A stretch of 64,000 nucleotides of DNA, taken from Miscanthus floridulus (Eukaryota > Streptophyta > Magnoliopsida > Poales > Poaceae). The notes beneath the pieces are model-generated. The model had not been told where the DNA came from. It saw only the letters and a program-made list of their open reading frames with translations, and made no database searches. Shown here piece by piece: positions 3,051-63,933 of this stretch. The translations under genes were made by a program, and so were the position numbers. Position 1 is the stretch's first letter. Every line of letters starts with the position of its first letter. Location of the stretch: assembly GCF_019320115.1 (NCBI RefSeq), contig NC_089591.1:55800078-55864077 (forward strand). The letters run 5' to 3'.

Positions 3051-3560
3051 TGGCCATCAAGTCCCAAGTGCTAGCTGATTTTGTTGCAGAATGGACTGAG
3101 ATCCAAATGCCACCAGCAGCCGTTGACAAAAGAGTACTAGACGATGTACTTCGATGGATCGCTGATGAAGAAAGGTGCCAATGCAGGGTTGGTCTTCATT
3201 TTTCCCCTCGGGGTATGGATGAGGTACATGGTTTGCATCCATTTCCCCTCCTCTAACAATGTGGCCGAGTATGAGGCACTCATCAATGGCCTACGCATCG
3301 CCATCAAGCTGGGTATCCGATGGCTTGATGTCCGGGGCAACTCCCAGCTAGTCATCAACCAAGTTATGAAAGAATCAAGTTGCCACAACGCTAAGATGGC
3401 TACATATTGCTAAGAAGTCCACCAGCTGGAGGACAAGTTCGATGGTCTCAAGTTCAATCACATCCCAAGGCGTCTCAACGAGGCGGCCAACGCACTAGCA
3501 AAAATGGCATCTAGTCGAGAGCTAGTGCTGATTGGCGTCTTCACCAGCGATTAGTACAAG
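3051..3560 (+). pseudogene. Tat-1 additional RNase H (aRNH)
   Basis: A second RNase H-like domain separates the ordinary RNase H from the integrase. The open part (3144-3413) begins MYFDGSLMKKGANAGLV, with the first catalytic Asp in FDGS, followed by NNVAEYEALINGL (catalytic Glu) and NSQLVINQV. The end (3415-3545) includes the tail segment EAANALAKMAS. This archaeal/plant-type RNase H duplication is diagnostic of the Tat lineage. A TAA at 3411-3413 and a TAG near 3552 break the frame. Confidence 0.8.
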
Positions 3561-20046: not shown

Positions 20047-23000
20047 TGTAACACCTCAGGTGTTAGCCTTACATAACTTGACTTGCATAACATGAGCATG
20101 ATCATAAAGCATTCATATATAAGCTTGACACTTGAAACATTGGATTGCAACATCTGCAACGTTTGCTTATTATCGCATGTTTCTTAAACATATGCAACTT
20201 TTCTCGTTATTTCATGTCTCCATGTGTCTAGGCATATGATCATGAGTGGACACATGTACTTGGTGGATGTGAGTCACACAAACATGTAGCCACACCTAGG
20301 GTAGCAAATAGAACCTTGCTTAGGGTTACATTTCATGAACCAACACTTAAGCTTTCTTGTGATTACACTAACTAGCTTAATGAGTGACTACTACATGAAA
20401 TGATTGTGTGACCTTGCAAATAGCTTAAACATGTTTAGAGTATCATTATGAACAACTTTGATATTCATGGTTAGGGGTAAAAAGGTCATTAAGCCATGCT
20501 TTGATGTGTATCATCATTTAAAAGTGACATGTTTGACCAAAGTTGAACTAGGTGTTAGAGACCTTGCATGGAGGAGATCACTAAAGCAAAGTTGTAATGT
20601 TTGACATAAGGAACAACTTTTATTTTTGGGTCTTTGACTGATTTAGCTCCTAACATGCTTGAATTGGTCCCACAAAAATAAGAAGAATCAACAATTCAAC
20701 ACTTAAGAAATTTTGCTAAGTCCTGGTTCACTGACGTGCTGACAGCCGACCTTTGGGACGATATAACTTGAGTTTGGTTGGGAATTAGCATGAGCTTGTT
20801 GAACAAGAATGGAAGCTGGTACATTAAGCTACAATTTTTGTTTTGACGGTGTGTGCTAATACTCCACGGATTAGCAGTTAAATGGACGGGAAAACACGCT
20901 GTCAGGCTTCTTCGCGGGCTCTGAACTTACTGAATCGGGCAATTCAGTGGCCGACCGCCTTCAGGCCATGGCCGCCGCGTGGAGGAGAAATGGCCGTGCG
21001 TCGCCTCTGCTCTGCCCCGCCAGGCCACATCGGGCCAGTACGCGCCTTCATCACCCCCGCACTCGCCCGCATCGCCCTACGCTTCCCATTTCGCTTTTCT
21101 GGCTCCTCCTTCCTCGCCGCAGCAGCAGCCGAGCACCTCCTCGCTCCGCCGTCGCCATAGCCTGCGTAGGCTCGCGACGAGCCATCCATTCTTCACCATA
21201 GCAGCACCACTAGCTCCCCAGCAACCTACTACCTCCTCCCGTGTCTACTGGTAGCGCTTGGTAAGCCACCGTAACACGTGCGAGCTCACCGGAGCTCCGC
21301 CGCTAGCCCCATCTCCGTGGCCACGTCGCCACCATCCACCCCAGGCTACAATAGGGCGCTAGTTAGCTCTGCCGCAGCTCAGTGATGCTCGGCATAGTGC
21401 TCGATCGAGCCACCATAGCCTCCACCAGCGTAGCGCCGTCGTCCAACACCACCGATCCGCCATGGCTGCTGTCGTCGTCACTAGAGTCGATGTTAGGGCC
21501 GGGCAAGTAGTGCAAACGATGCGCCTCGTCGAGTAGAACGTCTGGTGAAGATGTCACCGCCGGCGAACTCGCCACCGTCGAGTTCTAGCTACACCCATAG
21601 AGTAGCGCCGCCGGCTCTGTTTTGTCTCACTGGCCGGTGGGGTCAACTGACCAGTGGGTCCCGTGTGTCAGCGACTCCATGTATTAAAGCCAGTTCATTT
21701 TTGAATGCAGATTTCATATGTTTTGTAATTTTTGTATCTTCAGTTTGGTAGCTTCAAAAATTGTGAAATAAATTTGGTAGTGCTCCTTAGGAAGTGTAGT
21801 ATTTAGGAAAAATATGTTCTTGGCATTTACAGTAGAAATTTTTGGAGATTTAAATAGGGATTTGAAATGTACTTTTGAATGCATTCAAATTTGTTTATTT
21901 TATATCTAGGGTTCCTGTGCTCCAAAAATTATGAAATTTTTGTGGTAAGCTAGTAATAGCATATATGAACTCTGGTAAAAATTTGAGGACCAGTGCATGT
22001 GTAGATTTGTAGTTATAGATTTTTCTTTTATGAATGGTTAATCCTTGTGTAAATTTTCATAAATTATTTATAAATCCAAAATTCATGAAAATTTTTGGAG
22101 GTAATCCTAGTAGTATATGGATGCTAAGAAAAATAGTAAATCTATTGCTTGACACTTTTCAATAGGGTTTTCCATTTATGCTATTTCAAGCCTTGCTGAC
22201 TTATCATTTTTGTATAGGATGTTCTACTAGGTAAAATGACATGAAATTTTTATAGTAGTCCTTTGATAGCATTAGTAAGGCACTGTAAAGTTTTGAGAAT
22301 TTATGAAGTACCTCTGATATATGTTTATTATTTAACCTAAATATCTCAGTAAAATAATAAAGGCATTTAAAGAAATAGTTTGGGCTTCACCATTATATTA
22401 TCTTAAATGTATTTGGTATGCTTAAACTGTTGGAAGATTTTATGTTGTCAAATTTTGAATGATTACATGAATTAGAAGTATTGTTACTTGGTATTGCATA
22501 TTGAATAGTTTCCGGATAGGTTCTGGAGTTTGATGAGTTACATGTTGAAAATGATGTGTACTATAAAAATGGTTAATAACAAAGTTGTAGAGAATTTGAT
22601 AAGCTTTCCAGAAAGTCTAGGATCACTATATTTGGATTAGTAGAACTCCAATTATGAGTAAAACAAGTAACTACTGTTTTGTGGCATAGTCGATGCATTG
22701 TAGAAGTAGTTAATTAATAATCGAGGAGAGATATGCACCTACTCAATAAACATGATGCACTTGTTAACATATATGCATTCGTAATACTTATGCTACATTC
22801 ATGCATCTTGGATTGGAGGAAGAGATCACGTTGCTGGAATTCGAAGAAGCAGAGGAAGGGGACCAACAGGAGAATCCACAAGCCACAGCTCCCGAAGGCG
22901 TGGAGCAGATCCCTGAGGAGCTTCCAGAGTGTCCTGACCACCGCCCCACTTCCTTTCTACGAGGCAAGCCCCAGAGCATTCTAAGTCTCCCAGTAATTTA

Positions 23001-24460
23001 CAACTGTTTACTTAAGTACTTATGATTGATGCATTAGGTTATAAGAGTTGAATGGAACCACTTGATGCATGTACATTCCTTGTCCAAATATTACACCTTT
23101 AACCGGTATAGGTCTAGGATCGAATATATGCTTAGCTATGCTTAGACCGGTAGAAGTTGGGTGATATCTTGTCACCTACGAGATATAGGTGGATACCGAA
23201 GCATGGTTGGCTATATCTGCTATCGTGGAACAGAACCATGAGGTAAAAGTAAATCAAGACCGGACGGGAGGTCGATAGAGAAGCAACAAGACATGGAGGT
23301 CTTGGGTGTGGATCTATCCCCGTCTATGTCGATCAAGGACCGTACCATTGTTGGAACTTCTGACAAGATTGAACGCATGCCTCTCACTTAGCTGGCCGGA
23401 TAACTCATTCCGACCGCGAAGCTGAGTAATTCAACTTAGGCCGGGACTCATTCTGTTGTGCGCTCCTTCCGGGGAACGATCAGACTAAGCCCAAGGGTAG
23501 GCTTGGCCTGAGCATCCTGGCATCTAGTGTTCCAGATTGTGCAGCATGGTACGGACCCACGAAATGTGTACCTGAGTTGTACCAAAGGTGACCTAAGGCT
23601 ATCATGGTTGGTAGACCTGGGTTTGTGTTAGGAATAAATTCCCAGCTGGTTGAAATTGATTCGAATCGCCGTCTCTCCCGGATAGTGAGAAACTTGACTA
23701 GCTCCAACATCGTAGTAACTGTGTTATGAAACATGATGGTTTGGATGAATATGGAATTACAATACCTACTATGGTTACTATTGTATGCTTCTAAATGATA
23801 TACCACATGTTTGGCACAGGATAGTTTGCTAACCTAGAAATGGATAGTTATAATTAACCTGGTAAAGACTTTATAACTATACCATGATTCAATTACTTTT
23901 ATGCAAAAATGTTGTCAAGTTACGTCCACTTATACAGCCTTGCATAATCCTTGGAGTCATTTTATTTCTGGTTCATGACGGGTAAGTCTAGCTGAGTACC
24001 TTCTCGTACTCAGTGTTTATTTTCCCATTGTTGCAGATGGCACTGTGTATCATGGTTATTGCAAGAGTTGCTTCTATCCCACCATGGATGAGGAGTAAGC
24101 CTTGGGCAGGCTTCTTTATTAATTCCTATCCTTGCTTTTGTGGACCATGATCTTATTTGGCACTGTATCAAACTATGTTGGAACTTTATTTTTGAACTTA
24201 TTTGCTTCCGCTTTATTTATCAAACTCAGTTTGTAATAACTTTTATTCATACTCTAATGACAAAATGTATCTGTGAACTTTATGTAATATGTGGCATGTA
24301 TGTTGAATCCTATACGATCTTGGTTGTTGTAAATCGTTTATCGAGACCCGTCGTGGTACTCGATGGACTACCAGGTTTATATGAGTTCAAGTATGACAGT
24401 GCGACCGCTTGTGGGCTACCATTGTACTTGTACTCTTATAAATTGGTCGATTCTACGACA
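20047..24460 (+). repeat. 5' LTR of Tekay-1 (4414 bp)
   Basis: Starts TGTAACACCTCAGG and ends TTCTACGACA. It has an AT-rich first kilobase, a GC-rich block (about 20880-21680) with open but unrecognised frames, a long AT-rich stretch, and a 3' part with a perfect 8-bp hairpin (23992-24013). It matches 30964-35377 in length and sequence. The GC-rich block resembles a 5'-leader or captured host DNA, but no domain is visible. Confidence 0.93.
23992..24013 (+). other. Conserved 8-bp stem-loop in the Tekay-1 5' LTR
   Basis: CTGAGTAC and GTACTCAG pair perfectly around a 6-base loop (CTTCTC). The same stem with the same loop is at 34908-34929 in the 3' LTR. With a different loop (ATTCGA) it is at 63478-63499 in the diverged Tekay-2 LTR. 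Confidence 0.7.
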
Positions 24461-24462
24461 GC

Positions 24463-24474
24463 TGGTATCAGAGC
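24463..24474 (+). other. Primer-binding site of Tekay-1
   Basis: TGGTATCAGAGC, a perfect complement to the 3' end of initiator Met-tRNA, two bases after the LTR. Confidence 0.95.
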
Positions 24475-24742
24475 AAGATTCAACGTTAATTGTCACAAGT
24501 GTATTTAAAACAAAAGTTTTTGTTTTCCAAAAACCCTTCTCTAGCAACTAATAGTTATATAATAGGTATTTGAAATCTAAAGTGTGCCAATGATCACTTT
24601 CCTTATGCCCAAATTAAGGACTATTAGGTGGCTATTTAAGTACTAACATGGGGGTTTTTACTTCGTCGTCCATACGATGTGCTATTATATGGATGCCATT
24701 CACTTGAGTGGTAATGTATGGATCAAATGCCTCTACGCCAAG

Positions 24743-24748
24743 GTAAGA
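24743..24748 (+). promoter_or_regulatory. Candidate 5' splice donor upstream of ORF0 and gag
   Basis: CCAAG|GTAAGA is a near-consensus plant donor about 270 bases after the primer-binding site. Two acceptors lie downstream, each directly before an ATG: TGCAG|ATGGC (exon at 25230) and TCGCAG|ATGATG (exon at 26509). Splicing is a prediction. Confidence 0.45.
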
Positions 24749-25229
24749 TGAGGAGTGTATGACCGTAAGATGTGAGCGTGCAGTCGGGGAGAGTTAGCTT
24801 TGGTACGGCTATGTATGCATGCCTGCATGCGTATATGGTACATATTTAATTATGGGTTTAAATTATTGTCGGGTAGATTGATACGGATGTATATGTATGG
24901 ATATACATATATGGAAGTATTTACAAGTACATTCTGCATATTTCATTCTGGGTTTAGGGCTGAGATAAAATTTTATACAGGTACACTAACAACGAAACGT
25001 GTAGCTCGACTAGTTACGCCATTTATGAGAGAACATATGTATGCCACCGTGTCTACCGTTAGAAACAAATTTTTCCTAAGTTTGTGAGGACGTACGGAAT
25101 GAGCATGCATCATGATAATTATCATTCACATAATTACATTGTTCCTCCCCTTATAAAATTCTTACTTGGTTATGTAACTCTTATCCATTATGGCATTGTC
25201 TCACCAAAGGGTACATGTTAATGGTGCAG

Positions 25230-26153
25230 ATGGCACGCACCAAGCAGACTGCTCGCAAGTCCACCGGAGGCAGAGCTCCCAGCCGTCAGCTTGCTCCACA
25301 TACCCATCAACGTCACATGTTCCTTGGAGAGTTTGGGATGCCTACACTCTTATGGAGAGTGCTCAGCTATGTAGGCTATCCTGATGGAATGGAACCCCGC
25401 TACTTCTGGGCGAATGAGCAGTTGGGAGAAGGTCTCTTAGTTACTGTGGAGGCCGTTGTTCATCCCCGAGGTGATGATTCTGAGTGGACAGGCTGGTGTT
25501 ATGAGCCAACTGGCAGGACTGCTGAAGAAGCAGCTGGCAGGGCAGCCTTTGGGATCCTGAGGGATATCATGGATCATTTTCCTCAGGAGCTGGCAGCCGC
25601 TTTGGTTGGAGTTTTTCCGAGGGGTAACCCCTCCACTAACTCATGGCAGTAGGCAAGAGGAAGATCTTTGGAGATTGGTGCAGTAGAAGGGCAGAACAAC
25701 GATAACCCTTCCATGAGTGCCATGTTCGCAGTGATGAGAGTGTTAGATGGAGTAGAAGGTAGCCTCAGACGTGTGTCTGGTGCTCTTGGTCATGCCCACG
25801 AGGACCGATGTTAGCTTCAGAGGGAGCATGATGCCGAGATTGAGAGGCTCACTGAAGAGATGACTCGATTAACTCACCAAAGGAATGCGGCCTAGACCAG
25901 GGAAGATGTTCTGAGAGCTCAATAGTTCGAGCTAGGGTAGTAGCTGGTCAGTGCGGAAGAATACAACGATCACCTACATGAAGAGGTTCATCTACTGAAC
26001 AACTAGCTCCACCCTTATGTCCCACCTGGAGCCACAGAAATGGATCTAGAAGGGGACGAGGAAGAAGAAGAAGTAGAGCCTGAAGAAGAAGTGGAGCCTG
26101 AGGAAGGAGATGATCCTACGTCTGACCTCGATAGTGATCATGATGAGGATTAG
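25230..26153 (+). pseudogene. ORF0 of Tekay-1: histone H3-tail mimic fused to a non-histone protein
   Basis: From the ATG at 25230 the product reads M-ARTKQTARKSTGG-RAP-S-RQLA. It matches the H3 N-terminus at residues 1-21 except K14R, R17S and K18R; K4, R8, K9 and S10 are kept. The rest is not histone: there is no H3 globular domain. Residues 29-121 include FLGEFGMP, RVLSYVGYPDGMEPRYF and WTGWCYEPTGRTAEEAAGRAAFGIL, a beta-then-helix pattern I cannot assign. Residues 196-221 are a likely coiled coil and 271-307 are very acidic. The first in-frame stop is TAG 25650; six more TAGs follow (25812, 25893, 25923, 25938, 25941, 26004) before the terminal TAG 26151-26153. The ATG at 25230 is preferred over 25215 because it places the tail exactly at the N-terminus and follows a TGCAG acceptor. 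It lies between the primer-binding site and gag. Confidence 0.75.
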
Positions 26154-26508
26154 ATCGCTTAGCACTTAATGGAAGGTCTAATGTATCACCTTTATTCATG
26201 TAATGGACCTGTAGTTCGAGTTTGGCATTAGTGACCCGACTATCATGTAATGTTGATTATCGCACGTTTGGTTGAACATCAATGCAATTCCAGTCCTTTG
26301 TCGGTAATCATGATTTAAATTTGCATGCGTTATGAGCGCGATAAGTGGTCTAATTGGGGATGTCATGTTGCGAGAATGAAGTGTTATGCCTTTGTTTTTA
26401 TTGTGATTTTGAGAATTTTCTCTAGTAATTTCAGTTTGGCATGAGTACCTAATTCATCTGTAATCTCTTGGCATCAACCAATAATCGCTTATTATTGCAA
26501 CTTCGCAG
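26154..26508 (+). other. ORF0-gag intergenic region ending in a splice acceptor
   Basis: No long frame. It is AT-rich and ends in CTTATTATTGCAACTTCGCAG just before the gag ATG, which looks like a plant 3' splice site. Confidence 0.5.
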
Positions 26509-27560
26509 ATGATGCGCACCCATGCTGGAGCTAGTGGCAGCTAGGATGGCAACCATGATGACTTGCCACCCCCACCGCCGCCGTCTGCTCAGGAGTTCTT
26601 TACCCAGTTCCTAGGGAGCCAAAGGACAATGGAGAAAGCTTTGCGCCTTATCGCACAAAACACTGCTCGTGGCCACCCACATCAACCAGGGGCCAAGCCA
26701 AATCAGCACAGTACATTCAAGGAGTTTCTAGATACGAAGCCTTCAATCTTCAAGGTGGCTGAGGAACCACTGTAGGCCGATGAGTGGCCGAATACCATTG
26801 AGCAGAAATTCCGTCTGCTGAGGGTCACAGAGCATCTAAAAGCAGAGTATGCTTCTCATCAATTGCAAGGACCAATAGGGATCTGGTGGACACATTTCCT
26901 ATCGTCCTTGCCTACTAATGCGCGAGTTACCTGGGAACAGTTCAAGCTGGCTTTTAGGGGACACCATATTCCCCCGGGCCTGATGCGCATGAAAGCAGCT
27001 GAATTTATGAGGCTCACTCAAGGAACAAAGTCACTCACTGAATATATGCACGCATTCAACAACCTATCAAGATATGCTCCAAGTTTTGTGGATACTGAAG
27101 AGAAAAAGATAGAGAGTTTCAAGCGAGGTTTGGGTACTAAACTGATGAAGACTATGGCCAATTCTAGGTGTGCCACATACAATGAGTTTATTAGTGATGC
27201 CTTGACCCAAGAGAACCACAACAACATGCATGCAGTTGCCAAGGGTCGCAAGAGGGCATATGAGGCCGGTGCATCCGAATCTTTCCAGTCGAAAGCGCCT
27301 ATCACAACTAGGCCACAATTCTGTCCACCTACACCCAAGTTTAGGCCTCCACCACCGAAAACTCAGAATAATAGGCCACAAAAACCATTCCATAAGGTGT
27401 TCACTATTGCCCTACCAAAAGGAAATGGCAATCAGGACAGCTCCACCAGATTCAGAAGTAATCAACCATGTTTCAACTACAACCAACTAGGTCATTGGTC
27501 CAAGGAGTGCCCCACCCCAAGAAGAATAGCAACCAGAATTAGAACAATCAGAGACAGGTG
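26509..27560 (+). pseudogene. gag of Tekay-1
   Basis: ATGATGCGC at 26509 starts right after a splice-acceptor-like CGCAG. The N-terminus has a Pro run (PPPPPP) and FTQFLGSQR. The capsid (Retrotrans_gag) part follows: WWTHFLSSLPTNARVTW, FKLAFRGHHIPP, FMRLTQGTKSLTEYMHAFNNL. A basic, Pro-rich linker leads to a zinc knuckle in which the second Cys is Tyr (CFNYNQLGHWSKEC). In-frame TAG stops are at 26542 and 26773. A 1-bp deletion near 27518 shifts the end out of the pol frame. Gag of an intact relative would form the particle; this one cannot. Confidence 0.85.
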
Positions 27561-30500
27561 AATGCCAGGGCACGTCAGGGACAAGTGCATTATACCGTTG
27601 TGGAGGAAGTGCCCACCAGAGAAGTTGTCACGGCTGGTATGTTTTTCGTCAACAAGCATCCCGCTGTTGTTTTATTTGATTCGGGAGCTTCTCATTCATT
27701 TATGAGTCAAGCATTTACATCTAGACATGATTAAGAAATAATTGAAGTAAGCAAAGGGGGTTTTAACATAAGTTCAGTAGGGGGAACTGTTATTACCAAA
27801 AAGATAGTCAAAAATGTGCTCATCTCTATACAAGGGAGGGAGTACACAACAGATTTGATAATATTGCTGGGGTTATCAATAAGTGTAATCTTAGGCATGA
27901 ATTGGATGAAGGATCATGGTGTTCTTATTGACACTAGCACCCATACTGTTATGTTGAGAGAACCCACGGGAGGGAATGCTTTTCTAGTACCACTCTCCCG
28001 TGATTTCAAACCCCAACATTTAGCCTGTGCTATCCAAACCACCACAATATGTGATATCCCCATGGTTTGTGAGTTTCTAGATGTATTTCCTGAGGAATTA
28101 CCAGGTCTACCACCAGATAGGGACATGGAATTTAAGATCGAATTAGTGCCAGGTACCGCACCCATATCCAGAAGGCCCTATAGAATGCCACCCAATGAGT
28201 TAGCAGAACTTAAGGTTCAATTGCAGGATCTGTTGGACAAGGGTCTTATCCAACCTAGCTCATCTCTATGGGGATGTCCAGCCTTATTTGTGAAAAAGAA
28301 GGATAAGTCACTGAGAATGTGTGTAGATTACAGACCACTCAATGTTGTGACCATCAAGAACAAATATCTGTTGCCCCGCATCGACATCTTGTTCAATCAG
28401 CTAGCGAAGGCAAAGGTATTCTCCAAAATTGACTTGAGATCAGGCTACCATCAGATAAAGATCAGATCAGAGGATATACCTAAAACTGCTTTCTCTACTA
28501 GGTACGGCTTATATGAGTATTTGGTTATGTCTTTTGGATTAACAAATGCTCCCGCCTACTTCATGTACCTGATGAACTCGGTATTCATGCCTGAACTTGA
28601 CAAGTTCGTGGTCGTGTTTATCGATGATATATTGATTTATTCAGAAAATGAGTTAGATCATGAAGAGCATCTGAGAATTGTCTTATCCAGACTGAGGGAG
28701 CATAAGCTATATGCCAATTTTAGCAAATGTGAATTTTGGTTGAGCAAAGTACCTTTCTTAGGTCACATTTTATCAAGAGATGGAATCTCAGTAGACCCAT
28801 CAAAAGTACAAGAGGTCATGGATTGGAAAGCCCCAACTTCGATTCATGAAGTTCGGAGTTTTCTAGGGTTAGCGGGATATTATCGTCGTTTCATTCCAGA
28901 TTTCTCAAAGATAACTAAGCCTATGACCAGACTACTTCAGAAAGATGAGAAGTACAAATGGACACCAAAATGTGAAACAGCTTTTCACACCCTCAGAACT
29001 TTGTTGACTACAGCACCTGTGCTAGCACAACCAGACATTGAAAAACCTTTTGATGTATTTTGTGATGCCTCGGGAATAGGTTTAGGATGTGTGCTTATGC
29101 AAGAAGGAAGAGTAACTGCATATGCTTCTCGGCAATTGAGAAAACATGAAGTCAACTACCCTACACATGATTTGGAACTTGCAGCCATTGTCCATGCATT
29201 AAAGATATGGAGACATTACTTGTTGGGCAATGTATGTCATATCTATACTAACCACAAAAGCCTCAAGTATATTTTTACCCAGCCAGAGCTGAACATGAGA
29301 CAACGAAGATGGTTAGAATTAATTAAGGACTACAATTTAGAAGTGCATTACCATCCAGGTAAAGCTAATGTAGTAGCTGATGCACTCAGTCGGAAGTCTC
29401 ATTGCAACACTGTAGAAGCATTGTTGGAAGATGGATTCAACTTGTTACATCCTGTTGTACTACACAATATCACGATCAGTTGTTCACTTGAGAGCAAAAT
29501 CATAGAGCTATAGCAGACAGATGTAGAAATAAGGCACATCAAGAGAAAAATGCAAGAGCAAGAAACCAAACATTTTAGATTGGACGAAAGAGGTGTAGTA
29601 TGGTTTGAGGACCGACTAGTGGTACCAAAAGACCGTGAGCTAAGGAATCAAATTCTAGATAAAGCTCACTTGTCCAAATTGTCCATCCATCCGGGTAGTA
29701 GTAAAATGTATCAAGATTTAAGAACCCGTTTTTGGTGGACTAAGATGAAGAAAGAGATCGCAGCCTATGTTGCTAGGTGTGATAATTGTAGTAGAGTGAA
29801 AGCCGTTCATATGAAAACTGCTGGATTACTTCAGCCATTGCCTATTCCAGGATGGAAATGGGAGGAAATCAGTATAGACTTTATCACAGGCCTTCCAATG
29901 ATGCCACAAGGTCATGATTCAATATGGGTAATTGTTGATCGTCTCACCAAGTCAGCACATTTTGTACCAGTTCACACGACATATCACGTGGGCAAATACT
30001 CTGAGTTATATGTTTCCCAGATCATGAGATTGCATGGAGTACCCAGGACTATAATCTCAGATCGAGGACCACAATTCATAGCTCATTTCTGGGAGCACTT
30101 ACACCAGGCTTTGGGGACCAAGCTAATCAGAAGTTCGGCATATCATCCACAAACTTCAGGACAGACAGAGCGAGTGAACCAAATCCTAGAAGATTTACTT
30201 AGAGCTTGTGTAATATCTTCAAAAGGTTCATGGGAGAAGTGGTTACCTTTAGCTAAATTCTCCTATAACAATAGTTATCAAGCAAGTATCAAGATGGCTC
30301 CATTTGAAGCCTTGTATGGTAGAAAATGTAGAACTCCCTTGAATTAGATTGAGCCAGGTGAAAGGAGATACTTTGGTATTGATTTTGTCAATGAAGCTGA
30401 AGAGCAAGTACGTATCATCCAACAACATATGAAGGCAGCTCAATCAAGACAAAAGAGTTATGTCGACAGAAGAAAAAGACCACTAACTTTTGAAATAGGT

Positions 30501-30920
30501 GACTATGTATACTTGAGAGTATCACCCATGAAAGGTGTGAAAAGATTTGGGATGAAAAAGAAGCTTTCACCAAGATATGTAGGGCCATACAAAATTGTGG
30601 AACAAAAAGGAAATGTTGCATATAAGTTACAACTTCCACCAGAAATGAGTGCAATATTTGATGTGTTCCATGTTTCTCAGCTAAAGAAATGTCTTCGAGT
30701 ACCTGAAGAAGCTATTGCACCCACCAACGTGTAGCTTCAATTGGATTTGACCTATGAAGAAAAGCTAATTTGAGTATTAGAGGAGATGGAGAGAGTAACA
30801 CAGAGTAAGATTATTAAGTTCTATAAGGTGGTGTGGAACAATCATAGTGAACAAGATGCTACGTGGGAAAGAGAGGATTATCTGCGAGAAGTTTATCCCG
30901 CCTTTTTCCAAGAATGGTAG
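27561..30920 (+). pseudogene. pol of Tekay-1: protease, RT, RNase H, integrase, chromodomain
   Basis: Protease: VVLFDSGASHSFMS (27669 on), then a TAA. RT, open 27816-29513: [17 protein letters not shown]-type segment, [26 protein letters not shown] and the catalytic FIDDILIYS (about 28618). RNase [34 protein letters not shown], and [10 protein letters not shown] where the usual TDHKSL has lost its catalytic Asp. Integrase (29550-30347): HHCC zinc finger (HLSKLSIHPG...CDNC) and the DDE residues in SIDFI, SDRGPQF and QTERVN. The C-terminus ends in VSQLKKC and a chromodomain (about 30746-30915: LEEMERVT, VVWNNHSEQDATWE). Stops at 29511, 30346, 30732 (TAG) and 30771 (TGA) break the frame. The final TAG is 30918-30920. 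Confidence 0.9.
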
Positions 30921-30950
30921 GTCTTGTAAATCTCAGGACGAGATTTTTAT

Positions 30951-30963
30951 AAGGGGGAGGGGT
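30951..30963 (+). other. Polypurine tract of Tekay-1
   Basis: AAGGGGGAGGGGT lies directly before the 3' LTR start TGTAACACC. Confidence 0.88.
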
Positions 30964-33900
30964 TGTAACACCTCGGGTGTTAGCCTTACATAACTTGACT
31001 TGCATAACATGAGCATGATCATAAAGCATTCATATATAAGCTTGACACTTGAAACATTGGATTGCAACATCTGCAACGTTTGCTTATTATCGCATGTTTC
31101 TTAAACATATGCAACTTTTCTCGTTATTTCATGTCTCCATGTGTCTAGGCATATGATCATGAGTGGACACATGTACTTGGTGGATGTGAGTCACACAAAC
31201 ATGTAGCCACACCTAGGGTAGCAAATAGAACCTTGCTTAGGGTTACATTTCATGAACCAACACTTAAGCTTTCTTGTGATTACACTAACTAGCTCAATGA
31301 GTGACTACTACATGAAATGATTGTGTGACCTTGCAAATAGCTCAAACATGTTTAGAGTATCATTATGAACAACTTTGATATTCATGGTTAGGGTTAAAAA
31401 GGTCATTAAGCCATGCTTTGATGTGTATCATCATTTAAAAGTGACATGTTTGACCAAAGTTGAACTAGGTGTTAGAGACCTTGCATGGAGGAGATCACTA
31501 AAGCAAAGTTGTAGTGTTTGACATAAGGAACAACTTTTATTTTTGGGTCTTTGACTGATTTAGCTCCTAACATGCTTGAATTGGTCCCACAAAAATCAGA
31601 AGAATCAACAATTCAACACTTAAGAAATTTTGCTAAGTCCTGGTTCACTGACGTGCTGACAGCCGACCTTTGGGACGATATAACTCGAGTTTGGTTGGGA
31701 ATTAGCACGAGTTCATTGAACAAGAATGGAAGCTGGTACATTAAGCTACAATTTTGGTTTTGACGGTGTGCGCTAATACTCCATGGATTAGCAGTTAAAT
31801 GGACGGGAAAACACGCTGTCAGGCTTCTTCACAGGCTCTGAACTTACTAAATCGGGCGATTCAGTGGTCGACTGCCTTCAGGCCATGGCCGCCACATGGA
31901 GGAGAAATGGCCGCGCGTCGCCTCTGCTCTGCCTCGCCAGGCCACGTCGGGCCAGTACACTCCTTCATCACCCCCGCACTTGCCCGCATCACCCTGCGCT
32001 TCCCATTTCGCTTTTCTGGCTCCTCCTTCCTCGCCACAGCAGCAGCCGAGCGCCTCCTTGCTCCGCCGTCGCCATAGCCTACGCAGGCTCGCGACGAGCC
32101 ATCCACTCTTCACCGCAGTAGCACCACTAGCTCCCTAGCAACCTACTACCTCCTCCCGTGTCCGTTGGTAGCACTTGGTAAGCCACCGTAACGCGTGCGA
32201 GCTCGCCAGAGCTCCACCGCTAGCCCCGTCTCCGTGGCCACGTCGCCACTGTCCACCCTAGGCCGCAATAGGGTGCTAGTTAGCTCCGCCGTAGCTTAGT
32301 GATGCTCGGTGTAGCGCTCGATTGAGCCACCATAGCCTCTATCGGCGTAGCACCGTCGTCCAGCACCACCGATCCACCATGGCCGCCATCGTCGTCACTA
32401 GAGTCGATGTTAGGGCCGAGCAAGTAGTGCAAACGATGCGCCTCGTCGAGTAGAACGTCTGGTGAAGATGTCACCGCCGGCGAACTCGCCGCCGTCGAGT
32501 TCTAGCCGTGCCCGTAGAGTAGCACCGTCGGCTCTGTTTTGTCGCACTAACCGATGGGGTCAACTGACCAGTGGGTCCCGCGTGTCAGCGACTCCGTGTA
32601 TTAAAGCCAGTTCATTTTTGAATGCAGATTTCATATGTTTTGTAATTTTTGTATCTTTAGTTTGGTAGCTTCAAAAATTGTGAAATAAATTTGGTAGTGC
32701 TCCTTAGGAAGTGTAGTATTTAGGAAAAATATGTTCTTGGCATTTACAGTAGAAATTTTTGGAGATTTAAATAGGGATTTGAAATGTGCTTTTGAATGCA
32801 TTCAAATTTGTTTATTTTATATCTAGGGTTCCTTTGCTCCAAAAATTATAAAATTTTTGTGGTAAGCTAGTCTTAGTATATATGAACTCTGGTAAAAATT
32901 TGAGGACCAGTGCATGTGTAGATTTGTAGTTATAGATTTTTCTTTTATGAATGGTTAATCCTTGTGTAAATTTTCATAAATTATTTATAAATCCAAAATT
33001 CATGAAACGTTTTGGAGGTAATCCTAGTAGTATATGGATGCTAAGAAAAATAGGAAATCTGTTGCTTGACACTTTTCAATAGGGTTTTCCATTTATGCTA
33101 TTTCAAGCCTTGCTGACTTATCATTTTTGTTTAGGATGTTCTACTGGGTAAAATGACATGAAATTTTTATAGTAGTCCTTTGATAGTATTAGTAAGGCAC
33201 TGTAAATGTTTGAGAATTTATGAAGTACTCTGATATATGTTTATTATTTAACCTAAATATCTCAGTAAAATAATAAAGGCATTTAAATAAATAGTTTGGG
33301 CTTCACCATTATATTATCTTAAATGTATTTGGTATGCTTAAACTGTTGGTAGATTTTATGTTGTCAAATTTTGAATGATTACATGAATTAGAAGTATTGT
33401 TACTTGGTATTGCATATTGAATAGTTTCCGGATAGGTTCTGGAGTTTGATGGATTGCATGTTGAAAATGATGTGTACTATAAAAATGGTTAATAACAAAG
33501 TTGTAGAGAATTTGATAAGCTTTCCAGAAAGTCCAGGATCACTGTATTTGGATTAGTAGAACTCCAATTATGAGTAAAACAAGTAACTACTATTTTGTGG
33601 CATAGTCGATGCATTGTAGAAGTAGTTAATTAATAATCGAGAAGAGATATGCACCTACTCAATAAACATGATGTACTTGTTAACATATATGCATTCGTAA
33701 TACTTATGCCACATTCATGCATCTAGGATTGGAGGAAGAGATCACGTTGCTGGAATTCGAAGAAGCAGAGGAAGGGGACCAACAGGAGAATCCGCAAGCC
33801 GTAGCTCCCGAAGGTGTGGAGCAGATCCCTAAGGAGCTTCCAGAGTGTCCTAACCACCGCCCCACTTCCTTTCTGTGAGGCAAGCCCTGGAGCATTCTAA

Positions 33901-35377
33901 GTCTCCCAGTAATTTACAACTGTTTACTTAAGTACTTATGATTGATGCATTAGGTTATAAGAGTTGAATGGAACCACTTGATGCATGTACATTCCTTGTC
34001 CAGATATTACACCTTTTACTGGTATAGGTCCAGGATTGAATATATGCTTAGCTATGCTTAGACCGGTAGAAGTCGGGTGATATCTTGTCACCTGCGAGAT
34101 ATAGGTGGATACCGAAGCACGGTTGGCTATATCTGCTATCGTGGAACAGAACCATAAGGTAAAAGTAAATCAAGACCGGACGGGAGATCGATAGAGAAGC
34201 AACAAGACATGGAGGTCTTGGGTGTGGATCTATCCCCGTCTGTGTCGATCAAGGACCGTATCGTTGTTGGAACTTCTGACAAGATTAAATGCATGCCTCT
34301 CACTTAGCTGGCCGGATAACTCGTTCCGACCATGAAGCCAAGTAATTCAACTCAGGCCGGGACCCGTTCTGTTGTGCGCTCCTTCTAGGGAACGATTAGA
34401 CTGAGCCCAAGGGCAGGCTTGGCCTGAGCATCCTGGCATCTGGTGTTCCAGATTGTGCGGCGTGGTACAGACCCACGAAATGTGTACCTGAGTTGTACCA
34501 AAGGTGACCTAAGGCTATCGTGGCTGGTAGACCTAGGTTTGTGTTAGGAATAAATTCCCAGCTGGTTGAAATCGATTCGAATCGCCGTCTCTCCCGGATA
34601 GTGAGAAACTTGACTAGCTCCAACATCGTAGTAACTGTGTTATGAAACATGATGGTTCAGATGAATATGGAATTACAATACCTGCTATGGTTACTATTGT
34701 ATGCTTCTAAATGATATACCACATGTTTGGCATAGGATAGTTTGCTAACCTAGAAATGGATAGTTATAATTAACCTGGTAAAGACTTTGTAACTGTACCA
34801 TGATTCAATTGCTTTTATGCAAAAATGTTGTCAAGTTACGTCCACTTATACAGCCTTGCATAATCCTTGGAGTTATTTTATTTCTGGTTCATGACGGGTA
34901 AGTCTAGCTGAGTACCTTCTCGTACTCAGGGTTTATTTTCCCATTGTTGTAGACGGCACTGTGTATCATGGTTATTGCAAGAGTTGCTTCTATCCCGCCG
35001 TGGATGAGGAGTAAGCCTTGGGCAGGCTTCTTTATTAATTCCTATCCTTGCTTTTGTGGACCGTGATCTTATTTGGCACTGTATCAAACTATGTTGGAAA
35101 CTTTATTTTTGAACTTATTTGCTTCCGCTTTATTTATCAAACTTGGTTTGTAATAACTTTTATTCATACTCTGATGACGAAATGTATCTGTAAACTTTAT
35201 GTAATATGTGGCATGTATGTTGAATCCTGTACGCTCTTGGTTGTTGTAAATCGTTTATCGAGACCCGTCGTGGTACTCGACGAACTATCGGGTTTATATG
35301 GGTTCAAGTATGACAGTGCGACCGCTTGCGGGCTGCCATTGTACTTGTACTCTTATAAATTGGTCGGTTCTGCCACA
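30964..35377 (+). repeat. 3' LTR of Tekay-1 (4414 bp)
   Basis: Starts TGTAACACCTCGGG and ends TTCTGCCACA. I count 3 differences from the 5' LTR in the first ~400 bases but about 16 in ~205 bases of the GC-rich block (from 31798), nearly all transitions at CG or CHG sites. Confidence 0.93.
34908..34929 (+). other. Conserved stem-loop in the Tekay-1 3' LTR
   Basis: Same CTGAGTAC/GTACTCAG stem as at 23992-24013. Confidence 0.7.
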
Positions 35378-35382
35378 AAGAT
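35378..35382. repeat. Target-site duplication AAGAT (right) of the Tekay element
   Basis: Right copy of 20042-20046 with one G-to-A change. Confidence 0.8.
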
Positions 35383-35722
35383 TGCGGGACAATCTAAGGA
35401 ATGGTGGGGGGAGGCAATTTTGACAGTGTGTCATATCCTGAATAGGGTGCCTACAAAGAACAAAGAAATTACACTATTCAAGGAATGGGAGAAGAAGAGA
35501 TTCAATCTTTCTTACCTGCGAACATGGGGTTATTTGGCAAAAGTGAATGTGCCAATTAATAAAAAGGGAAAGCTTGGACAAAAACCGTTGATTGTGTCTT
35601 TCTCAGTTATGCTATTCACAGTGTGGATTATAAATTTTTAATAACAAATTCTAGAGTGCTTGATGTGAATGTTGGTACTGTTGTGGAATCTAGATATGCT
35701 ATATTTTTTAGAATGAATTTCC
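35383..35722 (+). pseudogene. Copia integrase, C-terminal half
   Basis: Continues the integrase cut at 20046: GQSKEWWGEAILTVCHILNRVP, then LSYLRTWGYLAKVNVPINKKGKLG. A frameshift near 35590 follows, and weak frames lead towards the reverse transcriptase. Confidence 0.8.
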
Positions 35723-37463
35723 TATGAAAAATACACCTGGCACTTCTAGTCATGAATCTATTTTATTCCCTAAGACGCATGAACTAGTAATACACACTGA
35801 TGTTGAAACCCAAGCGGAAAATCCAGAGGAGGATAACACTATAGTCACTCGAAAGAGTAAGAGACGGAGGACTGCAAAGTTCTTTGGTGAAGACTATATT
35901 ATTTATCTTGTGGATGGCACTCCTAAAACCATAGAAGAGGCATATTCATCTCTTGATGCTGACTTATAGAAGGAAGTTATTCAGAGCGAGATGGACTCTA
36001 TTATGTCTAATGGAACTTGTGAGGTTGTTGATCGTCCTTACGGATGCAAACCTATGGGATGTAAATGGGTGTTCAAGAAAAAGATTAGACCTGATGGTAC
36101 AATTGAGAAGTACAAGGCGACGCTTGTGGCTAAGGGTTATACCCAGAAAGAAGGCGAAGATTATTTCGATACTTATTTACTAGTTGCCCGTCTTACGACT
36201 ATACGAGTGTTACTTTCCTTAGCTGCCTCGTATGGTCTTCTCGTTCATCAGATGGACATTAAGACAAATTTCTTGAATGGAGAGCTTGAGGAAGAGATCT
36301 ATATGGATTGACCAGATGGATTTGTAGCAAATGGTCAAGAGGGAAAAGTGTGTAAATTATTGAAATCTTTGTATGTCCTAAAGCAAGCACCTAAATAGTG
36401 ACACGAGAAGTTGGACAAAACTTTGACATCAGCCGACTTTGCTATGAACAAAGCTGATAAATGTGTTTATTATCGGTATGGTGGGGGAGACAGTGTGATC
36501 TTGTGCTTATATGTTGATGATATACTAATTTTTAGAAATGATATTAATGTGATTGTGGAAGTGAAAGGATTTTTATCGAGTAACTTTGAAATGAAAGATT
36601 TGGAAGAAGTTGATGTTATTCTTAACATAAAGCTGCTCAGAGATGGAAATGGTGGGGTAACACTTTTGCAATCCCATTATGTGGCAAAGGTGTTGAGTCG
36701 CTTTGGATACAGTGATTGCACACCTGTTTCAACTCCTTATAACCCAAGTGTGCTATTAAGGAAAAATCGTAGAATAGCATGGGATCAATTAAGATATTCT
36801 CAAATAATTGGCTCACTTATGTATTTAGGTTGTGCAACGAGGCCTGATATCTCGTTTGTTGTGAGCAAACTTAGCCGATTTGTTTCAAACCCTAGAGATA
36901 ATCATTGGTGTGCTCTTAAAAGGGTATTGCACTATCTAAAAGAGACTGTGAGCTATAACATTCACTATATCGGGTATCCAAGGGTACTAGAGGGTTATTG
37001 TGATGCAAATTAGATATCTGATGCTGATGAGATTTATGCCACAGGTGGATATGTATTCTCACTTGGAGGTGGCGTTGTTTCATAGAAGTCTTGTAAGCAG
37101 ACTGTCTTAACGAGGTCAACAATGGAAGCATAACTCACAACATTAGATACCACCACTGTTGAGGCCGAGTGGCTTCGTGGACTCCTTATGGATTTACCGG
37201 TGGTTGAAAAACCAATACCAGCTATTTCCATGAACTGTTATAATCAGACAGTGATAATCAAAGTGAACAGTTTTAAGGATAACATGAAGTCTACAAGGCA
37301 TGTGAAGAGGCAGTTAAAATCTATCAGAAAACTGAGAAACTCCAGATTAATAGCGTTGGACTATGTCCATACATCTAAGAATCTAGCAGATCAATTTACA
37401 AAGGGTCTGTCACATAATGTGATAGATGGTGCATCGAGGGAGATGGCCTTGAGACCCATGTGA
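35723..37463 (+). pseudogene. Copia reverse transcriptase and RNase H
   Basis: A linker with a basic KSKRRRTAKFFGEDY segment leads to RT: MGCKWVFKKKIRPDGTIEKYKATLVAKGY (about 36055), VHQMDIKTNFLNGELEEEIYM, LKSLYVLKQAPK, and catalytic YVDDIL (36510). The RNase H part has YSQIIGSLMYLGCATRPDIS, LKRVLHYLKETV, VEAEWLRGL and NLADQFTKGL. Stops at 36309 (TGA), 36396, 37012, 37083 and 37129 (TAG) interrupt it. The order integrase before RT identifies Ty1/copia. Confidence 0.87.
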
Positions 37464-39497: not shown

Positions 39498-41091
39498 CTA
39501 CGCGCATAGTTTCGGTTCTAGGAGGAGCTTCTCCTTCCGGTGCACCACCAGCCCGAACTCCTCGGACATGTCAATGTCGCGCGCCGCCTTACCCGCCGTC
39601 ATCTCCCAGTCGAAGCGGTGCACGAGGTTCGCCAGCATCACCTAGACGGCGGCCATCCCGAAGTTGATCCCGGGGCACTGCCTGCGCCCGGCGCTGAACG
39701 GCAGGAACTGGAAATCGGTGCCCCTGAAGCCCACGTCCGCCGCGCTGCCGCCGTCGAGAAACCTCTCCGGGACGAACTCCTCCGCGTCCTCCCAGAACCG
39801 CGCGTCCCTGGCGACGGCCCAGACGTTGATGAGGACGCGCACGCCGGCCGGAACCACGAGCCCGTCGATGGTGCACTGGGTCATCGAGAGGTGCGGCGCC
39901 AGCAGCGGCGTCACGGTGCGTAGCCGGAGCGACTCCTTTATGACAGCTCTCAGGTAGGCCATGTTGTGCAGGTCGGTCTCTCTGACGATTTCTTGTCGTC
40001 CCTGCTGGTGCTGGGGCAGGCTGCTCCTCACCTCGGCCTGTAGTTTCTTCATCACGTGTGGCCTCTGAATGAGCTCAATGATGGTGTATTCGAGTAGCGA
40101 AGCTGCTGTGTCTACGCCGCCGAAAAAGACGTCCTGCATGTTCATCGCGAATTCGTGATGATGTGTATCTACTAATTAAAATTGTAGATTCTTAAAAGTA
40201 TCAACAACTTCTTGTGCGAAACATCAGGATCAGATCAGATGAACTTATAAGTAGGATAGCTTTCATCGACTCTCTGGTGAGGCCGTACTCGTGTTCGAGA
40301 TATGTATGAAGTCCTGGTCCTCGTCCTTCAGATCACTCGCCGACGCCGCTGCCATCGGCTCGTACATGCTCTCACAGTCGTCGATGAGCCCGTCCTGGAG
40401 CTCGTCCCACCTCTTCCTCAGTCTCTCGGACTTGGCGCGGACCACCTTGCTGAGAACGCCGAAGCGAGCCAGGAACGGGAAGAACTCCTCGACGTTGAAG
40501 CCTCCCAAGAGGGGCGACGTGTCGGCGATGAGCTCCCGCAACAGCTTGCTCCGGATCCGGCCGGATGACTTGCCCATGACGGCGCGGCACGCCAGATCAT
40601 TCGTGAACGAGCCCAGCAGCTCGCCCACGTCCACCGCCGCGCCAGCAGCGGCCGCCTCGGCGATCCGAGCCATCACCATGCTCACCTACCCAAGCACACG
40701 TCACAGAGTTATTGTCGTTTGCACACACACACACACCAGGGCACAGCCTACCTCTTCCTCGCGGGCGTGGCGGAACGACTGCACCCTTCTGACGGTGAGC
40801 AGGTGGGTGGTGACGAGCTTCCTGGCCTTCCGCCGTGCTTCGTGGCGAGGTTCCGGAGGAACACGTGAGGCAGCTTAGCCGATGAGGTGCAGGTGCCCGA
40901 AGACAGGCAGCGCCGGAGGCGAAGGCGGCAGAGGTATGGTCGTCGACGTCTTCGTCTAGCTGCTGCCTCTTCCTCGCTCTCTTGGTAGTCACCGAGTAGC
41001 GTACGAGCAAGAGCAACAGAGGGAGGAGCAGCAGGAACCATGCTCGTGGAGCCATCAGCTCGCGCATGAACTGATGCAGTAGGTTTGCCAT
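39498..41091 (-). pseudogene. CYP71-type cytochrome P450 pseudogene
   Basis: Minus strand, ATG at 41091. An N-terminal ER anchor (FLLLLPLLLLLVRY) and the Pro-rich hinge (LPPSPPALPVFGHLHLIG) are followed by a one-base insertion, KLPHVFLRNLATKHGG, and a deletion of roughly 90 residues before KLVTTHLLTVRRVQSF. A CA-repeat stretch (about 40690-40755) separates REEE from VSMVMARIAEAA; it could be read as a small GT-AG intron. After DFIHI a second small deletion shifts the frame; EHEYGLTRESMKAIL is then readable in another frame and the usual CYP71 intron follows. Exon 2 (from about 40133) keeps the I-helix (FFGGVDTAAS), the K-helix (KESLRL) and the haem loop (FLPFSAGRRQCPG). A TAG replaces a codon after GMAAV (39644). 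Such enzymes oxidise specialised metabolites, but the substrate cannot be told from this sequence. Confidence 0.88.
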
Positions 41092-62300: not shown

Positions 62301-63933
62301 GGCACGCTAGATGAATCACGTGAAGGATGAGATGTTGGAGCCAAACCCGAAGACAGTGTTTAATGGATCTATCCCAAAGATGAAAGGACTAAGCGAATGC
62401 TAGGACCTAAGACGTCACTAGGATGGTGCAAGCTAACTGAACTGACTTGTGACGGATCACAGGCAAGCCCCGGAGCATTCTAGGTCTCCTACTTTATAAA
62501 AGCAATTCTTTCTATATATGAGTTATATATTGTTGCATTAAGTTATAGGAGTTGATTGAAACCGTTGATGCATTTAGTATTATCCTTGCTTACCTTATTA
62601 CCTTATTACCCTATTAGGTCGGGATCGAATAACTACTTAGGCTTGCTTAGACCGGTAGCGATCGGTGATATCCGATCACCTACATTTATAGGTGGTTACT
62701 GGAAGAATTTAGCTATGGAAAGAATGATATCCTGGAATTAACCATGTGTGATGGATAATTGGAGACCGGATGGAAAAGTTGGAGGCAACCAAACAGGGTT
62801 CTAGGGTGCTGTTAGTTTCCGTCTGTGTCGATTAAGGACCGTCTGTTGTTGGGCCTCGAGTCATGTTGAACGCATGCCTTACATTTAGCTGGCCAGATAA
62901 AGTACCTTCCGACCACGAAGCTGGGAGATTATTCGAGCCGAGTAGATTGCCCGCAGCGCACTGTGCCGGAGCAGGTGTGGTAGGACACGGGGGCGAGATG
63001 ATAAGACCAAAGTGCAGTTGGTCGGCCCCCGGGTACATGTGGTTCCTAGCAAACTCAAGATTCCTGGATAGTTGACTCATTGATCAATATCTCACTTTAG
63101 CGGGTGAGTGAGGTTTGTGTAAGGAATAAATCACCAGCTGGTTAGGAATCAATTCGAATCGCCATCGCTCCTGGATAGTGAGCACTTGACTCGAGTTACG
63201 GCATCGTAGTAATTATTATGGAATAATGATGGTTATCTGGATGGTATGGGATATGCTAAATCTAAATTGGTAATTGGATGTTATTGGTTAATCAAGTGAT
63301 TGCTATAGTATAGGTGCTTACCTAGATGGATAGGTCATAATAAAGATGATGCAAAGTACTTAAAATGGTTTCTTCATGATAGCTTATGCTTTTCGCAAAT
63401 GAGTCAGCTAGCCCACTAAAGAAAGTCTTGCATATCCTTGGTGTCGCTTTATTTTAGTTTAAGACGGGTAAGTCTGGCTGAGTACATTCGAGTACTCAGG
63501 GTTTATCCCACCTTGTTGCAGGTGATGTTCTCGACCTGTTGATGATGGTGGCTAACCGCCAGTGGGCTCGGTGATTCTATACTTACTTCTCATCTACATG
63601 CTCTTGTTGGATGATATCACTTATGCTAGCAATATATTTGGAACTTATATTAATGTAATCATTTGAAAGCTATGTTGTTTTCACTAAGCGGTTTTGAAAC
63701 CCAAACTGGTACTTTTATTTGTGAACCCATTTATAATATTATTTCTGCTGCAACCCTGTGTATGTGATGTGTATTTACTTAATCACGTGATCTTGGTTGT
63801 GATGTTGATTTACCGAGGTCTTTCGGGACACTCGGCAGACTACCGGGTTTATATGAGTGAAAGTATGGGTGTGTCAACGTTTTAGCGGGGACAACCGTAC
63901 TTGATCTTGTATAAATTGGACGGTTCTATCACA
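59360..63933 (+). repeat. 5' LTR of Tekay-2 (about 4574 bp)
   Basis: Starts TGTTATAACACCCCAGG after GAGGT (the probable left target copy) and ends TTCTATCACA just before a primer-binding site. It has the same plan as the Tekay-1 LTR: AT-rich start, GC-rich block (60360-60960), long AT-rich part, and a conserved 3' part (AGGCAAGCCCCGGAGCATTC at 62461, hairpin at 63478). It is clearly diverged from Tekay-1. The body of the element lies outside the window. Confidence 0.88.
63478..63499 (+). other. Conserved stem-loop in the Tekay-2 LTR
   Basis: CTGAGTAC, loop ATTCGA, GTACTCAG; the same stem as in both Tekay-1 LTRs but a different loop. Confidence 0.7.

Follow-up and report, generated by a model that had tools for sequence, protein, structure and literature searches.

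How does a reading frame lodged in a grass retrotransposon come to begin with the N-terminal tail of histone H3, and what might the element gain from it? The question is raised by a 64,000-nucleotide stretch of Miscanthus floridulus DNA (the window), in which a frame upstream of gag, here termed ORF0, starts at position 25230 with the peptide MARTKQTARKSTGGRAPSRQLA. This agrees with H3 at 19 of 22 residues, the sole changes being K14R, R17S and K18R. An earlier note on this DNA had described an H3-like N-terminus running from the initiator methionine, and three lines of evidence agree with it: the translation, the best PDB match of ORF0, which is the H3 tail (E 1e-5, residues 1-23), and a tblastn search of the window with H3, in which the ORF0 site was recovered with E 1e-7 and the second-best site with E 3.4.

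The chromovirus and its ORF0

The frame belongs to an LTR element spanning 20047-35377, with the following parts:

20047..24460, + strand: 5' LTR, TG...CA, about 4.4 kb, ends read, 95.6% identical to the 3' LTR over 4416 alignment columns
24463..24474, + strand: primer binding site TGGTATCAGAGC, from the sequence as printed
24475..25229, + strand: leader before ORF0, ending in a 3' splice-site-like GGTGCAG at the ORF0 ATG
25230..25295, + strand: ORF0 codons 1-22, H3-tail-like (translation, PDB match, tblastn)
25338..25577, + strand: dsRBD-fold domain, alpha-beta-beta-beta-alpha (residues 37-116 of copy L012, same numbering; AF2, Foldseek, VIA-align)
25650..26006, + strand: stretch with seven in-frame TAG stops, which break the window copy
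25701..26009, + strand: coiled-coil helix (residues 158-260 of copy L012, projected from AF2)
26040..26150, + strand: acidic C-terminal tail of ORF0 (translation)
26509..27561, + strand: gag region, broken in the window copy (Pfam Retrotrans_gag in 26983-27561)
27897..29513, + strand: reverse transcriptase and RNase H (Pfam RVT_1, RT_RNaseH)
29550..30347, + strand: integrase (Pfam H2C2 zinc binding above its cutoff; core below cutoff, E 1.7e-4)
30774..30917, + strand: piece of a chromodomain following a stop, at the C-terminal end of the integrase (Pfam Chromo, below cutoff with E 1.8e-4)
30964..35377, + strand: 3' LTR (LTR-LTR alignment, ends read)

The element is flanked by an imperfect 5-bp target-site duplication, with GAGAT before the 5' LTR and AAGAT at the 3' LTR, and its primer binding site is of what we take to be the initiator tRNA-Met type. 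With its LTRs, the gag-RT-RNaseH-integrase order and a chromodomain at the integrase C-terminus, it is a chromovirus of the Ty3/gypsy class, Tekay-like. The best PDB match of the chromodomain piece is 2m2l (E 2.9e-5), followed by the Clr4, MPP8 and CBX chromodomains. ORF0 lies in sense orientation between the 5' LTR and gag, the place of the extra 5' ORFs of grass chromoviruses. Directly beyond the 3' LTR, at 35174-37013, there is a broken Ty1/copia polyprotein (RVT_2 clear, SH3_retrovirus weak), and the chromovirus thus appears to be inserted in an older copia element. Farther along the window are a cytochrome P450 fragment (39642-40145, - strand, Pfam p450 E 1.3e-50) and a segment (62461-62923) about 70% identical to the LTR stretch 22962-23424, perhaps a related-LTR remnant.

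The interval 25230..26153 had been read as an open frame. In the window copy it is interrupted by seven in-frame TAGs (25650 to 26004) upstream of the terminal TAG at 26151, and this copy consequently reads 140 residues only. The architecture described in the same note, a non-histone domain, a coiled coil and an acidic tail, is indeed found behind the H3-like stretch, both in the translation and in the AF2 model of L012. H3 similarity ends near residue 22-27, and what follows is a dsRBD-like domain; no histone-fold domain is found after the ORF0 tail. This domain has the alpha-beta-beta-beta-alpha arrangement of the dsRBD fold (AF2 on L012, Foldseek, VIA-align), with DRB7.2 and DCL4 dsRBD2 ranking first in structural comparisons, near-tied with other dsRBDs. 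A Pfam search of ORF0 reported no dsRBD model. In dsRBDs, KKxAK-type lysines at helix 2 contact RNA; by eye, such lysines are absent from GRTAEEAAGRAA, GRTLAEGAEGAA, GRTPKEGAGKAA and other copies. We therefore claim the fold and not RNA binding, and do not favor canonical dsRNA binding by ORF0.

Copies, variants and architectures of the family

Confinement of the tail to this single copy, an outcome that the earlier note had named as fatal to its reading, is not what the genome presents, as there are thousands of tail sites genome-wide. In the assembly searched (2.68 Gb, 2420 contigs, about 19 of them large), a DNA pattern encoding M-A-R-T-K-x-T-x-R-K and then a serine-like codon matches at 3151 sites (1622 + 1529), among which about 40 may be H3 gene starts and for which the sites listed come from one contig; the same pattern reversed occurs nowhere in the genome (0 + 0). 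A genome search with the first 140 residues of ORF0 gave at least 150 scored relatives, the best of 8782 first-look candidates, and of the 20 closest copies fetched, 8 can be read from the tail onward for 300 aa or more.

The tail variants comprise A (that of the window), A2, A3 (L or Q after K4), A4 (V), D (MARTKQTARKSTGGRAPRRPLA), R/L (MARTKRTARKSAGG), B/V (MARTKMTPRKSTGPKGVPRHQL) and an RKR type (MARTKQTPRKRT...) that carries a different acidic body. About four architectures share the tail. One combines it with the dsRBD, coiled coil and acidic segments; tail, coiled coil and acid alone occur in two forms, one of the P0026 type and the other of the B and P0036 type; and the RKR-type architecture was read over just 108-117 codons. 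Apart from the tail, the first three of these architectures also have homologous coiled coils, family A matching P0026 at 50-52% identity (E ~1e-24), B with E ~1e-12 and P0036 with E 5e-8. Though the coiled coils are related, the gag of family B shares no more than about 35% identity with that of the window (three loci), indicating that the tail families are deeply split. The ORFs at L084, L085 and L086 open with MARTK(Q/L)T(P/A)RKR and go on to a body that is basic at first and then very acidic; in L084 and L085 the ATG is immediately preceded by TAG. The resemblance of this type to the others goes no farther than the H3 1-9 core, and it may stem from an independent capture or be a relative that has evolved fast.

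Database searches yielded 42 proteins, 40 with the whole of ORF0 and 2 with tail-free P0011. The tail is included in 14 of them; the other 28 start inside or show none and are presumably cut at contig ends or at internal start codons, being uninformative on the tail. P0034, P0035 and P0037-P0040 are coiled-coil relatives with a similar acidic end and no visible tail, whose N-termini may be cut. No ORF0 relative was found in the plasmid search or among 68 pattern stretches in viral contigs; residues 60-193 of P0036, used as a query, matched only themselves, and an NCBIfam search gave no family above cutoff.

Exon correspondence and constraint of the tail

The earlier note held capture from a host gene to be likelier than convergence. 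Our results support capture and sharpen it to the 24-codon first coding exon of intron-bearing H3 genes. In a genome search with H3 (150 scored of 3861 candidates), the 97 matches listed include full-length intronless genes and split genes, the latter in pieces of about residues 1-25, 21-53, 49-82 and 79-136. The starts of ten genes were read, three of them intronless and seven split; in each of the split ones the boundary of the first coding exon seems to fall behind codon 24 (AAG|GT), close to where the H3 likeness of ORF0 ceases. Directly before the ATG the split genes have CAG, the triplet that also precedes ORF0 (L089, L090), TAG (L087, L088), GAG (L093) or CTC (L091, L092); we take these genes to be of the H3.3 type and their AGs to be used acceptors. 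ORF0 likewise has AG directly before its ATG in 20/20 copies of A, 23/24 of A2, 3/4 of A3 and 2/2 of A4, and in family B an AGT stands there in 29/30.

The codons were also said to resemble those of an H3 gene. This stands for family A, whose tail matches L089 and L090 at 55 of 66 nt, with 13 of 18 shared-residue codons identical, as against 51-54/66 nt for the other five split genes and 48-51/66 nt and 7-9/18 codons for the three intronless ones. Elsewhere the likeness is slight: L093 is the nearest H3 gene both of D (53/66) and of A2 (54/66), and the closest match of A3, at 50, is to an intronless gene (46-49 for the others). Over 66 bases such codon likeness to intron-bearing genes is suggestive and not proof. 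Chance or convergence is ruled out by the H3 E-values, the family size and the exon edge. An H3 pseudogene adjoining the element can also be set aside, as the whole-protein matches listed pass from the tail, or from the residues at its start, to the non-histone body with no change of frame. The probable source of the tail is a host H3 gene, namely its first coding exon, and selection has probably retained the tail since.

Selection was gauged by Nei-Gojobori counts on 20 copies of A, 24 of A2, 4 of A3, 2 of A4 and 1 of D. Between A and D, the latter being one sequence picked through a tail pattern that fixes eight residues, tail codons 2-13 have pN 0.012 and pS 0.50, compared with 0.48 and 0.86 in the linker and 0.34 and 0.73 in the dsRBD. 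At the 13 tail positions free of that pattern, identity to D is 217/260 for A and 243/309 for A2, against 0.54 in the dsRBD. The tail gives pN 0.038 and pS 0.415 for A2-D, and 0.119 and 0.35 for A-A3 (net 0.020 and 0.21); net values for A or A2 versus D over codons 2-13 are pN 0.000-0.005 and pS 0.39-0.47. Pairs with A4 have pN/pS ratios ranging from 0.30 to 0.57 over codons 2-22 and from 0.33 to 0.90 over codons 2-13, the upper value being the net ratio of A3-A4 (8 pairs), with the other A4 pairs at 0.33-0.38. For A-A2, net pN/pS over codons 2-22 is 0.36 in the tail and 0.18 in the dsRBD, and hence the tail is not the tightest part of ORF0 in every comparison. These counts point to mostly purifying selection between families, with tail amino acids kept while synonymous sites change. 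Neutral decay of the tail, which the earlier note had set against its reading, does occur inside old copies (A2 internally, pN/pS 1.2). It is the between-family numbers that carry the argument, since the lysine codons AAG and AAA suffer little from C-to-T or G-to-A decay, and lysine retention in dead copies is weak evidence. A functionless H3 stretch, left over passively from the capture, would accommodate the near-neutral decay within A2 and the A3-A4 ratio of 0.90; we consider this highly improbable in view of the net values of A or A2 versus D and of the survival of the tail in architectures lacking the dsRBD.

Individual residues differ in their retention. Among 80 copies from searches and L081, 81 in all, none lacks K4, K9 or S10, and R2 is present in 74, T3 in 59 and R8 in 73. 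In the 86 copies fetched, which include six picked by a pattern that itself demands K4 and K9, K9 is present in all and S10 in 83, the three exceptions being of the RKR type. The 14 database proteins with the tail all keep K9 and S10, and 11 keep K4; R replaces K4 in P0011, P0042 and P0024, with K9-S10 kept in all three, making K9 better supported than K4 as a target. The tail of P0011 reads ARRRLTAHKS, yet K4 is found in 24/24 of the A2 copies drawn with it. These three K4R relatives separate the two candidate targets. Families A and A2 have R for K14 in 43/44 copies and R or H for K18 in 44/44, and family B has A for T3 in 18/30.

The same substitutions bear on mimicry of the Snail type (SNAG), whereby the free N-terminus would plug the catalytic site of LSD1-like H3K4 demethylases or bind PHD fingers. 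The principle is known from animal SNAG proteins, and most families do carry A1-R2-T3-K4 at the very N-terminus; replacement of K4 in 3/14 database proteins that keep K9, and of T3 in most family B copies, nevertheless makes it improbable. A role as a nuclear-import signal, with H3-carrying importins taking ORF0, and perhaps bound RNA or Gag, to the nucleus, is unlikely too, if less so. H3 tails bind importins, and the substitutions at K14 and K18 in A and A2 keep basic residues; proteins of the grass Tekay 5' extra ORFs are moreover predicted to be nuclear (PMC11728184). Any basic stretch would do for import, yet both the sequence and its N-terminal position are kept, with K9 invariant in the 86 copies and the 14 proteins while neighboring positions change.

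Candidate roles and relation to known systems

That so abundant an element has the H3 tail at the start of its ORF0 suggests that the protein interferes with or exploits the chromatin silencing machinery. The earlier note had proposed decoying or recruiting of K4/K9 writers or readers, which we would now narrow. Our best explanation, to which we give somewhat less than an even chance, is that a captured H3 exon, a dsRBD-fold domain, a coiled coil and an acidic segment together make a silencing antagonist. ORF0 would have acquired codons 1 to about 22 of the 24 in an H3.3-type first coding exon, along with a 3' splice site at the ATG, fused in front of a protein with dsRBD-fold, coiled-coil and acidic-tail parts. 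Translation would be from a spliced RNA with its acceptor at the ATG, as the unspliced leader holds many upstream ATGs (32 in the 769 nt between the 5' LTR and ORF0). From the ORF0 stop to the presumed gag ATG at 26509, itself directly preceded by GCAG, there are 355 nt with 15 ATGs, and alternative splicing to ORF0 or gag would be a natural reading.

The coiled coil would then multimerize the free H3-like N-terminus, which would occupy nuclear binders of the unmodified or methylated H3 tail. The chief targets would be K9 writers and readers, presumably those of the SUVH/KYP, CMT2/3 and SHH1 types. The degenerate dsRBD might engage the Dicer-partner (DRB/DCL) complex by protein contact, and tail and dsRBD together could weaken the silencing to which the element is subject, both RNA-directed and through H3K9me2/CHG. 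In its specific two-armed form the proposal is more doubtful: the exon-captured tail, itself K9-methylated, would titrate SUVH/CMT/SHH1-type proteins, and the coiled coil-linked degenerate dsRBD would disturb Dicer complexes through mimicry of DRB/DCL contacts. The N-terminal alanine of ORF0 might be acetylated, unlike that of H3, which counts against mimicry.

CHG context depends on H3K9me2. Over the first 118-180 ORF0 codons, CAG has become TAG in 7/90 cells of family B, 8/96 of A2 and 1/80 of A, and CAA has become TAA in 0/120 cells of B, A2 having no CAA column for comparison. Decay is not restricted to CAG sites, as A2 has TGG to TAG in 5/96 cells and CGA to TGA in 4/24. The ORF0 stops in old copies appear to fit CHG decay, as circumstantial evidence.

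Alternatively, the tail could be an adaptor for integration or replication, which, methylated or read in the manner of H3, would tie the particle or integrase to H3K9me readers and thereby to heterochromatin. The chromodomain at the integrase end and the fit of such a tail to H3 readers would be in keeping with this; we regard it as quite unlikely, since the chromodomains of seed-plant chromoviruses are reported (PMC6317226) to lack the H3K9me-binding aromatic cage. For the same reason we do not favor the element's chromodomain reading its own ORF0 tail.

The silencing antagonist that we prefer has several partial precedents. Steinbauerova et al. (Genetica 139:1543) reportedly noted in 2011 that part of the 5' extra ORFs of grass Tekay/Del chromoviruses are partially similar to a histone H3 gene. 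ORF0 shares this partial similarity, as well as the sense orientation, the position between 5' LTR and gag and the grass-type chromovirus host; the exon boundary, acceptor-like start, constraint and several architectures come from the present analysis. In a 2024 sunflower study, a DRBM-like fold and modulation of RNA silencing are proposed for the Tekay 5'aORF proteins of maize and sorghum (PMC11728184). ORF0 is like these in lineage, position and DRBM-like fold, and unlike that account, as given there, in that its dsRBD is nearest DRB7.2/DCL4 dsRBD2 (near-tied with others) and misses the RNA-contact lysines. The word 'histone' is absent from the main text both of PMC11728184 and of Vicient and Casacuberta 2020. 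In limited literature searches, neither the exon origin nor selection on the tail, the acceptor-like start or the degenerate dsRBD was found to have been described before. Given the H3 similarity said to have been seen in 2011 and the DRBM-like fold of 2024, the H3-like ORF0 counts as an already known type; what is new, within the limited literature searched, is the evidence on origin, constraint and architecture.

Influenza NS1 and the Snail/SNAG proteins are histone-tail mimics, and ORF0 is comparable in that a short H3-like peptide at the end of a protein could occupy H3 readers or writers. It differs in having about 22 residues, a true H3 N-terminus, an exon-like origin and a retrotransposon as its carrier. 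Likewise, the VANC proteins of Arabidopsis VANDAL transposons are anti-silencing proteins, and ORF0 too is an additional protein of a mobile element that may act against silencing by the host. VANC resides on a DNA transposon and has a reported effect; protection from silencing by Vandal aORFs is noted in PMC11728184.

The exon correspondence, if borne out, would illustrate clearly how an exon can be captured along with its splice site. Should the tail indeed be read as H3, this abundant lineage would encode a mimic, acting in trans, of the very substrate on which its own silencing pathway works. This would help explain the spread of such families despite CHG/H3K9me2 silencing, and the writers and readers of K9 in plants could be probed with a naturally occurring peptide.
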